Origin: Anaeromonas gelatinilytica
GTDB taxonomy: Bacteria > Bacillota > Clostridia > Tissierellales > SIT17
Assembly (NCBI RefSeq): GCF_016820635.1
Contig: NZ_WSFU01000127.1
Location: 1-64,000, forward strand
Length of the DNA: 64,000 nt
Direction of reading: 5' to 3'
Shown: positions 28,208 through 32,281 of the stretch, piece by piece
Position numbering within the stretch: position 1 is the first letter of the stretch
How the letters are laid out: each line of letters opens with the position of its first letter
Program-made: the position numbers and the translations under genes
The notes under the pieces: model-generated
Told to the model about the DNA's origin: nothing
Databases searched by the model: none
What the model saw: the letters and a program-made list of their open reading frames with translations, nothing else

Positions 28208-29098
28208 ATGAAGTTACAAGAAGAACTAATGAAATATAAAATACTCATAGAAGATGAGTTAAAAAAGGTAATTCCACAAAAAAATGTGCCACAAAAAATT
28301 CTTCTAGAATCTATGGAATATAGTCTTTTATCCGGAGGAAAGAGATTAAGACCGATACTTTTATTGAAGAGTTGTGAATTATTTGATGGGGATATAGAAG
28401 ATGCGATACCATTTGCTGTTGCAATGGAAATGATACATACTTATTCATTAATTCATGATGATCTTCCTGCAATGGATGATGATGATTATAGAAGAGGTAA
28501 TCTTACAAATCATAAAATATATGGTGAAGGTATGTCAATTTTAGCTGGAGATAGTCTATTAAATTATGCTTATGAAATTATGTTAAAGGTGTTAATAGAG
28601 AAAAAGGAACAATTAAAATATATAGATGCAATGAATGTGATTGCAAAAGCTGCTGGATTTAATGGCATGATAGGAGGACAAGTTGTTGATATTGATTCTG
28701 AAAATAAAGAAATTAATTCAGAGACATTAGACTTTATTCATTTAAATAAGACGGCCGCATTGATAGAAGCATCTTTAGTAGCTGGAGCTATTATTGGAGA
28801 AGGTGATTCTAAAGAGATTCAATTATTAAAGGATTATGGTAGATTAGTTGGTATATCTTTTCAAATAAGAGATGATATACTAGATATTATTGGTGATAAA
28901 GAAAAATTAGGTAAAGATATTGGTAGTGATGTTGATAATGATAAATCTACCTATGTATCCATACATGGAATGGATAAAGCCCTTAATGATTTAAAAAATT
29001 ATAAGAATCAGGCTATAAGAATAATGAAAAAATTTGATAAAGATAGAAGCGAATTTTTTATTGAGTTATCTGATTATTTAATGAGTAGAACTAATTAA
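28208..29098 (+). CDS. ispA: Farnesyl diphosphate synthase (IspA)
   Basis: Prenyltransferase making C15 (or C20) diphosphate from IPP and DMAPP. First aspartate motif DDLPAMDDDD and second DDILD are intact, with GGKRLRP before them and MIGGQVVDIDSE in the middle. 296 aa, family length. ATG 28208 follows TAGGAGGA. Next in the operon come OLE RNA, oapA and dxs, so two isoprenoid genes flank the RNA. Confidence 0.96.
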   Translation: MKLQEELMKYKILIEDELKKVIPQKNVPQKILLESMEYSLLSGGKRLRPILLLKSCELFDGDIEDAIPFAVAMEMIHTYSLIHDDLPAMDDDDYRRGNLTNHKIYGEGMSILAGDSLLNYAYEIMLKVLIEKKEQLKYIDAMNVIAKAAGFNGMIGGQVVDIDSENKEINSETLDFIHLNKTAALIEASLVAGAIIGEGDSKEIQLLKDYGRLVGISFQIRDDILDIIGDKEKLGKDIGSDVDNDKSTYVSIHGMDKALNDLKNYKNQAIRIMKKFDKDRSEFFIELSDYLMSRTN

Positions 29099-29116: not shown

Positions 29117-29145
29117 TTGAATATTGAAAATGCCTATGATATAAT
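29117..29145 (+). promoter_or_regulatory. Internal sigma-A promoter for OLE RNA
   Basis: TTGAAT (29117-29122), 17-bp spacer, TATAAT (29140-29145). A start near 29152 would coincide with the 5' edge of the structured, G-rich RNA, so OLE probably has its own promoter. Confidence 0.72.
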
Positions 29146-29151
29146 TAACCT

Positions 29152-29730
29152 GCTAAGAATGGTGCAGTATTCTAGTCAGAATGGCTAATTCTGAAGGCGG
29201 GGCTAAAAATCCGTCAAAGGGCATATCGATGAAGTTCCTGGTTATGGCTTGTGACGCCCAGTCAGGGGTCATTTCTGGGAGTAAGGAGGATGGGGCGATC
29301 CGCAAAGGCATGTGGGCGTTGACCCTACCTCCGTGGAGACCTATTTGTTTTGTAGGATAACCTGTTAGTAGTATAAGCTGCTGCAGTGTAGCCTGCCTTG
29401 AGTGAAATAGGTAGATAATAGTTGTGATTTGAAATTTTAGGGGCCCTATAAATGGACGATTTTGCTATTGAAACCTATTTTGCAAAAGAGGCTATGAATT
29501 AGCATGACTGTTGAGGAAAACTCCTAGACTGTTCATGAGAGAAATATATTGAGGATTGCAGTGTGGACTAAATGGCAATCTGGCTCTAGTATTAGGGACG
29601 AGATTAAAGGGAAACCGCTGTTATGGCGACAAGCAGTTCTTGTTCGGGAAATCCTGCCAGACCTCAAGCCGCAAAATTTACTCAATATATTGCCATTCTA
29701 AAGCTGGTAGCTTTTATGCTATCAGCTTTA
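29152..29730 (+). ncRNA. ole: OLE RNA (ornate large extremophilic RNA)
   Basis: A gene-free block of about 580 nt with much higher G+C than its surroundings and dense pairing: TCAGAAT/ATTCTGA at 29176-29194, GATTGC/GCAATC at 29554-29580, and a long closing helix of AATATATTGAG (29543-29553) with CTCAATATATT (29681-29691). Size, content and position between ispA and oapA-dxs match the known OLE locus of Bacillus halodurans and relatives. OLE forms a membrane-bound ribonucleoprotein with OapA (and OapB, OapC) and is tied to cold, ethanol and magnesium stress. Boundaries are set from the promoter and the 3' hairpin. No protein-coding ORF is plausible here. Confidence 0.93.
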
Positions 29731-29733
29731 TTT
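29700..29733 (+). terminator. Hairpin at the 3' end of OLE RNA
   Basis: Arms 29700-29711 and 29718-29729 (AAAGCTGGTAGC with one G-U pair) around TTTTAT, followed by ATTTAG. It may terminate or process OLE; the weak T-run would let some transcripts reach oapA and dxs. Confidence 0.65.
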
Positions 29734-29785
29734 AGATATGGTTATTTAGGTAAAGCTGAAAGTATAAAATGTTAGGAGGTATTTT

Positions 29786-30373
29786 TTGTCGAAACATAAT
29801 AAGAGTATAAATAAAAGAAAAAAAAGTAAAAAAAATTATAAGTGGACATTAATCATATCAATATGGACTTTTTTTCTAGCCATTGCAGTTAGTATTCTTT
29901 CAGAAAATCTGATGAGAAATTTTGATATTCTTTTTGCTTCTATTACTTTAATTTTTATTATTTTTTTAGGGGTATTTTTTGATACAATTGGTATTGCTGT
30001 TGCATCGGCTCAAGAACGACCATTTCATTCCATGGCTGCACAAAAAAATTTAGCAGCTAAATATGCGATTAAGTTAATTAAAAATGCTGGACCAGTATCA
30101 AATTTTTGTAATGATGTTATAGGAGATATATGTGGGATTATAAGTGGAGCAGCTGGGGCAATAATTGTAGCAAAATTTTCAAAAATATATGACATAAAAG
30201 AATTAACTATGTTAAGTGTTGTAATAAGTGGATTGATTGCTTCTTTAACAGTTGGAGGAAAGGCAATAGGGAAAGAAATAGCGATTAATCATTCTAAAAC
30301 AATAATATATTATACTGGTAAAGTAGTTATGTTTTTTGATAAAAAGTTAAAAATAAAAATATTAAGTAAATAG
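29786..30373 (+). CDS. oapA: OLE-associated membrane protein OapA
   Basis: 195-aa protein with four likely membrane helices (about 20-40, 48-70, 113-131, 141-157) and a very basic N-terminus (KRKKSKKNYK) suited to RNA binding. The segment SAQERPFHSMAAQKN between helices 2 and 3 resembles the DUF21/CorB membrane domain to which OapA is related. TTG 29786 follows AGGAGGT. It sits 56 bp after the OLE hairpin, the standard position of oapA. It anchors OLE RNA to the membrane in characterised species. Confidence 0.92.
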   Translation: MSKHNKSINKRKKSKKNYKWTLIISIWTFFLAIAVSILSENLMRNFDILFASITLIFIIFLGVFFDTIGIAVASAQERPFHSMAAQKNLAAKYAIKLIKNAGPVSNFCNDVIGDICGIISGAAGAIIVAKFSKIYDIKELTMLSVVISGLIASLTVGGKAIGKEIAINHSKTIIYYTGKVVMFFDKKLKIKILSK

Positions 30374-30412
30374 AATTTAAATAATAATTATTAGAAGGTG
30401 AGTGACCCTTTG

Positions 30413-32281
30413 ATGAAAATATTAGATAAAGTAAATTGCATATTAGATTTGAAAAAACTTAATAATAATGAGTTGAATATTTTAAGTGAAGAGATAAGAG
30501 AGTTTCTTTTAGATAATATATCTAAAACAGGGGGACATGTTGCATCAAATTTAGGTGTTGTGGAATTGACAATAGCGATCCATAAAGTTTTTAATAGTCC
30601 AAAAGATAAAATCATATGGGATGTAGGTCATCAATGTTATATTCATAAAATTTTAACTGGAAGAAAAAATAGAATAAGTACACTTCGACAATATGGAGGA
30701 TTAAGTGGTTTTCCAAAAAGATCTGAGAGTTCTCATGATGTTTTTGAAACAGGACATAGTTCTACATCAATTTCGGCTGGATTAGGTATGGCTATTGCTC
30801 GAGATATAAAAGGAGAAAATAATGAAGTAGTTTCAGTTATAGGTGATGGATCCATGACTGCTGGTATGGCTTTTGAAGCATTAAATCATGCTGGTGATAT
30901 AAAAAATAAGATGATTGTAATATTAAATGATAATGAAATGTCTATATCTCAAAATGTAGGTGGATTATCGAAATATTTTGACAGAATAAGAACAGCTCCA
31001 ACATATGGTAAAATGAAAGATGATGTAGAAAATTTATTAAATAGTATTCCTGCTATAGGAAAAACAATGTATAGAACGGCTGAAAGAGCTAAAGATAGTC
31101 TTAAATATTTTTTGTTACCAGGAATTTTATTTGAAGAATTGGGATTTAAATATTTAGGACCAGTAGATGGTCATAATATACCTGCATTATTAAATATTCT
31201 TAAGAGAGCAAAATTAGTAAATGGCCCTGTAATAGTTCATGTGTTGACAAAAAAAGGCAAAGGATATAAACCAGCAGAAGATAGACCAGATAAATTTCAT
31301 GGTTCTTCATCTTTTGATTTAAAAACGGGGAAAGCATTAAATAATTCTAATGGAATTAAGTATTCTCAAGTATTTGGTGATAAATTATATGAATTAGCAA
31401 AAAAGAATAAAGATATTATAGCTATAACTGCAGCTATGCCTTCAGGAACAGGATTAGAAAAATTTAAACATAAACTTCCTAAAAGATTTATTGATGTAGG
31501 TATAGCTGAACAACATGCTGTAACTCTTGCTGCAGGATTAGCTTCCGAGGGTTTAAAACCTTATTTCAGTGTATATTCCACTTTTTTACAAAGGGGATAT
31601 GATCAAGTTATACATGATGTATGTTTACAAAATTTACCTGTTGTATTTGCTATAGATAGAGCTGGCTTGGTAGGAAATGATGGGGAAACTCATCATGGTG
31701 TTTTTGATTTTTCATATCTTAATCATATTCCTAATTTAACAATAATGGCACCAAAGGATAAAAAAGAATTAGAAGATATGTTAGAATTTACTTATCATTA
31801 TAATGAAGGACCTATAGCTATAAGATATCCTAGAGGATTAAGCGTTGAAAGAGCAGAATTATCAACTAATAATGAAATAAGTTTTGGTAAAGGTGAATTA
31901 TTAAAAGAAGGTAAAAATATAGCTATAATGGCTGTAGGGAAAATGGTAAATATAAGTTATGATGTATGTTTAAGATTAGAAGAAGATGGATACAACCCTA
32001 CTTTAATTAATGCAAGATTTTTAAAACCTCTAGATAGGAATTTGATAAAAAAAGTAGCAAAAGAGTATAATTTAATTATAACATTAGAAGATAATATTGT
32101 TATTGGAGGTTTTGGGTCAGTTATTAATAATGAATTAATAAATCAAAGCTATAAAGGCAAAACCTTAAATATAGGTTTACCAGATGAGTTTATCGAGCAT
32201 GGAGATACAGATGATTTATTTAAAAAATATAAATTGGATGTTAATGGAGTTTATGATATTATTCGTAATAAGATAAAGTAG
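30413..32281 (+). CDS. dxs: 1-Deoxy-D-xylulose-5-phosphate synthase
   Basis: Thiamine-diphosphate enzyme for the first step of the MEP isoprenoid pathway, joining pyruvate and glyceraldehyde 3-phosphate. DVGHQCYIHKILTGR, the TPP motif GDGSMTAGMAFEALNHAG with the NDNEMSIS continuation, catalytic Glu in DVGIAEQHAVTLAAG and the transketolase-C domain are all present. About 622 aa. ATG 30413 or TTG 30410 both fit AAGGTGA upstream; GTG 30398 overlaps it and is rejected. The same operon carries ispA. Confidence 0.97.
   Translation: MKILDKVNCILDLKKLNNNELNILSEEIREFLLDNISKTGGHVASNLGVVELTIAIHKVFNSPKDKIIWDVGHQCYIHKILTGRKNRISTLRQYGGLSGFPKRSESSHDVFETGHSSTSISAGLGMAIARDIKGENNEVVSVIGDGSMTAGMAFEALNHAGDIKNKMIVILNDNEMSISQNVGGLSKYFDRIRTAPTYGKMKDDVENLLNSIPAIGKTMYRTAERAKDSLKYFLLPGILFEELGFKYLGPVDGHNIPALLNILKRAKLVNGPVIVHVLTKKGKGYKPAEDRPDKFHGSSSFDLKTGKALNNSNGIKYSQVFGDKLYELAKKNKDIIAITAAMPSGTGLEKFKHKLPKRFIDVGIAEQHAVTLAAGLASEGLKPYFSVYSTFLQRGYDQVIHDVCLQNLPVVFAIDRAGLVGNDGETHHGVFDFSYLNHIPNLTIMAPKDKKELEDMLEFTYHYNEGPIAIRYPRGLSVERAELSTNNEISFGKGELLKEGKNIAIMAVGKMVNISYDVCLRLEEDGYNPTLINARFLKPLDRNLIKKVAKEYNLIITLEDNIVIGGFGSVINNELINQSYKGKTLNIGLPDEFIEHGDTDDLFKKYKLDVNGVYDIIRNKIK

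Follow-up and report, generated by a model that had tools for sequence, protein, structure and literature searches.

Few of the structured bacterial RNAs that lack a known biochemical function are as large as the OLE RNA, and the ribonucleoprotein (RNP) that it forms in Bacillota contributes to tolerance of cold, alcohols, Mg2+ and poor carbon sources. A 64,000-nucleotide stretch of the genome of Anaeromonas gelatinilytica, a member of the order Tissierellales (the window; all coordinates refer to it), contains a structured noncoding block between ispA and an oapA-dxs pair that a sequence-only reading had taken for this RNA, and the locus raises the question of whether the block is a complete OLE gene, with which partners it is encoded, and where its transcript would begin and end. 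Our answer, given with high confidence, is that this is an ordinary full-length OLE RNP gene, most likely transcribed on its own and ending at a conserved probable terminator, and that the reading frame at 29786–30373 encodes the partner protein OapA. The locus is laid out as follows:

28208–29098, + strand: ispA, polyprenyl (farnesyl) diphosphate synthase gene, the upstream neighbour (PF00348, NF045485)
29117–29145, + strand: predicted OLE promoter, TTGAAT-17-TATAAT with an extended −10 (TATGATATAAT at 29135–29145), from a consensus scan
29143–29712, + strand: OLE RNA of the full-length type with a short P7, by the extent of the RF01071 match
29700–29729, + strand: conserved 3′ hairpin, AAAGCTGGTAGC-TTTTAT-GCTATCAGCTTT, then ATTTA (fold −19.5 kcal/mol, z −4.3)
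29713–29768, + strand: longer competing hairpin that shares the 3′ arm of the conserved hairpin (from folding; this genus only)
29786–30373, + strand: oapA, 195 amino acids, TTG start, with ribosome-binding site TTAGGAGG at 29772–29779
30398–32281, + strand: dxs, the downstream neighbour (TIGR00204)

The block is the gene of an OLE RNA, and OLE together with OapA is a kind of locus that is already known. The Rfam OLE covariance model RF01071 aligns to it end to end (model positions 1–616) with a score of 471.4 bits (E 3.2e-135; gathering score 50), which is the sole gathering-level Rfam match within the window; the covariance search found OLE as a single copy in the 2.9-Mb genome and returned no match in 14 control genomes, and a plasmid search gave one weak partial match. 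Coding is not suggested, since the block contains no open reading frame of at least 60 amino acids (on which ground a protein-coding reading was rejected) and the lengths of OLE within the genus (570, 571 and 574 bases) do not all differ by multiples of three. Both the covariance scan and the lack of a coding signal thus bear out the sequence-only reading that the block is OLE. Its start of 29152 coincides with the start predicted from the promoter, although its 3′ boundary was placed too early, the gene reaching slightly further and including the hairpin at 29700–29729. OLE sits directly upstream of oapA, and the genes downstream of dxs resemble tlyA, argR and recN in their translations. The locus shares its full-length match, landmark loops, kink-turn strands, own (here predicted) promoter and position beside oapA and isoprenoid genes with the RF01071 representatives from H. 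halodurans, C. acetobutylicum and C. botulinum; unlike these it has a short P7, and directly past the Rfam end it carries a sequence-conserved hairpin that is not covered by the Rfam model and that the sampled Bacillaceae loci lack.

A complete covariance match can be read helix by helix, and the landmarks expected of a full-length OLE RNA were found in order:

29203–29213, + strand: A-rich loop of P4, CUAAAAAUCCG (motif position)
29216–29234, + strand: kink-turn region at the base of P5, 5′ strand (motif position and high-posterior alignment to the model)
29283–29332, + strand: P6, with AAGGAGG (29283–29289) opposite ACCUCC (29327–29332), read from the sequence
29331–29341, + strand: other strand of the kink-turn, in J6/7 (motif position and high-posterior alignment to the model)
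29440–29447, + strand: palindromic loop L9.3, GGGCCC (motif position)
29625–29631, + strand: conserved GGCGAC loop of the 3′ domain (motif position and alignment to the model)

In H. halodurans, OapB binds in the region of the GGCGAC loop. Motif position and model alignment show loops L5.1 and L6.1 and the conserved 3′ core to be intact as well, and the motifs of all dimer contacts (the P4 A-loop, L5.1/L6.1 and the palindromic L9.3) are therefore present at the level of sequence; central palindromes in L9.3 also occur across the relatives. Of these elements, the P4 A-loop is a dimer contact in cryo-EM structures (PMC12286853, PMC12265935), L9.3 is a self-kissing dimer contact (PMC12286853), the kink-turn at the base of P5 is the OapC site (PMC9723947, PMC12286853), and a Shine–Dalgarno/anti-Shine–Dalgarno-type duplex in P6 is bound by bS21 in H. 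halodurans (PMC12054373). P7 is short, and P8, a long P9 and the 3′ domain with its GGCGAC loop align to the model; because P8 and the long P9 are present, the RNA is nearest to full-length OLE, not to variant 1 or variant 2, in the published scheme of OLE types (PMC11332333). Seven bases at 29156–29162 can pair, as judged by eye, with 29693–29699 just before the hairpin, and this pairing would be the closing helix P1.

Departures from this anatomy were seen among the relatives. In a Peptostreptococcaceae metagenome-assembled genome (MAG) (L065, 3485–4002) P9 is much shortened and the palindromic L9.3 contact is missing, and in an Anaerosolibacter MAG (L043, 3306–3926) about the first 90 model positions have no convincing counterpart in the OLE match, and the sequence upstream resembles the end of a coding gene, which reflects either real loss or misassembly. 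An apparently interrupted OLE (L071) proved to be an assembly gap of N.

The assignment of the downstream gene to OapA draws on its genomic company and its predicted fold. A search of species genomes with OapA as the query, from which 80 relatives were kept, placed the closest relative in Anaeromonas frigoriresistens (80% identity). OLE lies upstream of oapA in all 80 loci, an adjacency that is a statement about OapA since the loci were chosen by OapA; in the same OapA-picked loci, ispA directly precedes OLE in 72 and dxs directly follows oapA in 49. In a further set of 60 relatives, chosen by neither OLE nor OapA, the two occur in the same 44 genomes and both are missing from 15, the one discordant relative (OapA without OLE) being an assembly that is 71% complete. 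The 15 genomes of the 60 that have neither imply several joint losses (or joint failures to gain the pair) within this one order. An alignment of the 44 OapA sequences contains an invariant segment, NFCNDVIGDI, with a D-x3-D spacing like that of residues D100 and D104, which are changed in the OapA PM1 protein (D100A/D104A; PMC9723947).

Searches with OapA against Pfam, NCBIfam and PDB sequences gave no match, and its fold is therefore a predicted one. An AlphaFold model (mean pLDDT 88.8) describes a four-helix membrane protein whose best structural matches are CNNM/CorC transmembrane domains (7m1t, Z 12.7; 7m1u, Z 12.3; 7cff, Z 11.2), scores to be read with the tool's warning that Z up to ~13 can be common for helical models; the next, non-CNNM row stands at Z 8.2, and Foldseek compared the model with 7m1t at probability 1.00 (E 0.011). 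The drop in Z after the CNNM entries, the fact that three of these agree and the Foldseek probability jointly argue for a CNNM-like fold, and the predicted match to the domains of CNNM/CorC Mg2+ transporters fits a published suggestion that OapA is similar to MpfA, an Mg2+ transporter (PMC11332333). OapA nevertheless differs from CNNM/CorC proteins such as MpfA in lacking CBS and CorC domains, in having no detectable sequence match to the Pfam CNNM family, and in occurring only with OLE. Adjacency, shared presence and absence, the invariant motif and the predicted fold together support the earlier call of this gene as oapA. The genome also encodes a CNNM-family transporter (G000:C5:13425–13955), a candidate MpfA orthologue; as CNNM-type MpfA has been reported to be anticorrelated with OLE (PMC11332333), this protein would count against the OLE RNP model.

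Two further partners of OLE, correctly noted as absent from the window, are encoded elsewhere in the genome. The oapB gene (L037:8246–8527, − strand) lies between map and infA and its product matches the solved OLE-associated protein B (7k9b, E 3.5e-12); oapC (L002:1498–1740, − strand) lies between rpoC and rpsL and its product matches the solved YbxF (4lck, E 1.1e-13), and each is thus found in its expected ribosomal gene neighbourhood. OapB is present in 57 of the 60 relatives, OLE-negative genomes among them, a count that agrees with the already published occurrence of OapB outside OLE species. The sequence-only reading had called OapB L7Ae-like, by which the two labels were swapped: OapB (YbzG) is a KOW protein and OapC (YbxF) is the L7Ae-like kink-turn binder (PMC9723947).

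OLE is preceded by a predicted strong extended −10 promoter that is conserved in relatives. Its −10 box (29140–29145) predicts a transcription start near 29152. Taken singly, matches of the consensus scan are no commoner in this region than in shuffled sequence, and the case for the promoter therefore rests on conservation: within the 62 bases examined upstream of OLE, a high-scoring promoter-like site was found at 108 of 133 loci against 11 of 133 after shuffling, mostly 20–24 nt before a conserved AGTAT. An own promoter is already known for the OLE gene of H. halodurans (PMC9723947).

At the other end, the hairpin at 29700–29729 starts directly behind the putative P1. Terminator-like hairpins stand at the 3′ end of OLE in 77 of 111 loci, compared with 0.7 expected from shuffles, and their stem is mostly of one sequence (GCUGAUAGC/GCUAUCAGC; as RNA, GCUGRUAGC-loop-GCUAUCAGC) while the loop varies (34 loops in 41 distinct hairpins). 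When the 5′ arm alone was sought in 125 distinct flanks, 67 cases were found, and in every one of the 67 a 3′ arm follows that pairs at all positions (7 of 7), whereas shuffling the downstream sequence leaves such an arm in ~2%; such variation as the stem shows preserves pairing, through G-U pairs and a few two-sided changes. Of the 44 relatives with OLE, 33 have the pattern GCTGRTAGN{3,14}CTATCAGC at its 3′ end and a further six show either a variant differing by one base or a longer loop, so that at least 39 of 44 carry the hairpin. Among the OLE-bearing relatives that lack it, one has an unrelated GC-rich hairpin further downstream (G014, L156) and another a T run right behind OLE (G022, L157).

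Away from OLE, the 60 genomes hold the pattern at four places only and a reversed control pattern nowhere, a rarity that ruled out a general terminator sequence of these genomes. In other orders of the class the exact pattern stands at the OLE end in 7 of 108 OLE-bearing genomes; three members of the order in this class-level sample also have it there, and eight genomes have it somewhere other than the OLE end. The hairpin is absent from the sampled Bacillaceae OLE loci, and with it missing from these and from most class-level OLE loci, a universal part of OLE was likewise ruled out. An inverted repeat serving as a DNA operator is disfavoured by the spacing of the arms, which ranges from 3 to 11 nt or more. 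A hairpin of this kind was not found described in the papers examined that treat OLE RNA and terminators, although the consensus figures of the founding papers may include it.

The hairpin is likely an intrinsic terminator and the 3′ end of OLE, as judged from its sequence, and it probably marks a real RNA end in the Tissierellales lineage. Like intrinsic terminators, it closes a noncoding RNA gene with a stem, a short loop and a U-rich tail; it differs from them in a stem that is nearly fixed across many genera and in a U-tract that is only moderate. The moderate tract (TTTATTTA) and the failure of a standard consensus terminator scan to report the hairpin, despite a stem of −19.5 kcal/mol, weaken this reading. 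One relative bears on it from the other side. Genome G025 encodes neither OLE nor OapA, yet it keeps the hairpin, on its own between ispA and tlyA (L149, G025:C14:243500–249500, near 2950), in the place that OLE-oapA occupies in relatives; this copy is one of the four non-OLE occurrences. Most simply, either the upstream operon has retained it as a useful terminator or it is what a recent loss has left behind; an isolated hairpin fits the terminator reading and, as a single case, argues against a role bound purely to OLE.

The near-fixed stem invites the further idea that the hairpin does more than end transcription: in Tissierellales and some neighbouring Clostridia it may belong to the OLE RNP, the sequence of its stem being recognised by a protein or used in an RNA contact. 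The free loop beside the constant stem and the near confinement of the pattern to the OLE 3′ end in the 60 genomes speak for this idea, as does a comparison with the terminators behind tmRNA in 25 genomes of the order, whose 5′ arms have a mean pairwise identity of 0.55 where those of the OLE hairpin reach 0.945, a contrast inflated to some degree because the OLE set was prefiltered for this hairpin type. We nevertheless regard a part in the RNP as unlikely, given that a relative without OLE or OapA retains the hairpin, that many OLE lineages do without it, and that no binding protein is known. Slightly less likely still is the specific proposal that GCUGRUAGC/GCUAUCAGC constitutes an undescribed, sequence-read element that aids formation of the OLE RNP, or sets the ratio of OLE to oapA, beyond termination.

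Within the genus the hairpin also has a competitor. In the window and in three congeners, the 5′ arm recurs further downstream, and this copy can pair with the hairpin's 3′ arm, giving a regional minimum fold of −35.4 kcal/mol (z −5.7) in the window and −41 to −44 in other congeners. Between congeners, an A-U pair of the longer hairpin becomes G-C, a two-sided change that leaves the terminator stem with a G-U pair and by which the longer pairing seems to be kept, although in the window's own copy one pair is mismatched. Because the two pairings are mutually exclusive and the longer is the more stable and kept in four congeners, they could act as a switch on the transcription that continues past OLE to oapA-dxs, or position a site at which RNase cuts the oapA message away from OLE. 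This is doubtful, however: RNA polymerase reaches the second arm (29745–29768) only beyond the U-tract, which does not fit the order of a classical attenuator, only four sequences are involved, and neither a ligand nor a regulator is known. The longer hairpin is as likely to shield the oapA leader or to bring about its cleavage. Far less probable again is that this OLE is a relic, degraded or no longer functional. Its 471 bits do fall in the lower portion of the 420–536 spanned by the order, but the match is full-length with its landmark motifs intact, the promoter is conserved, and oapA, oapB and oapC are all intact.

We hypothesize that the ordinary OLE RNP gene favoured here works much as in other Bacillota, by analogy with the genetics of H. 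halodurans and the cryo-EM structures from Clostridium. Transcription from its own strong promoter at 29117–29145 would end at the hairpin and yield an RNA of ~580 nt, and read-through past the hairpin would supply oapA-dxs. Two copies of the RNA would join by way of their P4 A-loops, the contacts of L5.1/L6.1 and the palindromic L9.3; a dimer of the CNNM-like OapA would hold the RNA at the membrane, with OapC bound to the kink-turn and OapB to the 3′ domain. The assembled RNP may then help the organism to withstand cold, alcohols, Mg2+ and poor carbon sources.

For the study of this RNA it is useful to have a clean OLE locus, together with its three known protein partners, from an order remote from the model Bacillaceae. 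The 3′ hairpin is worth keeping in OLE expression constructs, and the genome that retains the hairpin without OLE or oapA makes the choice between a terminator and a part of the RNP directly testable.
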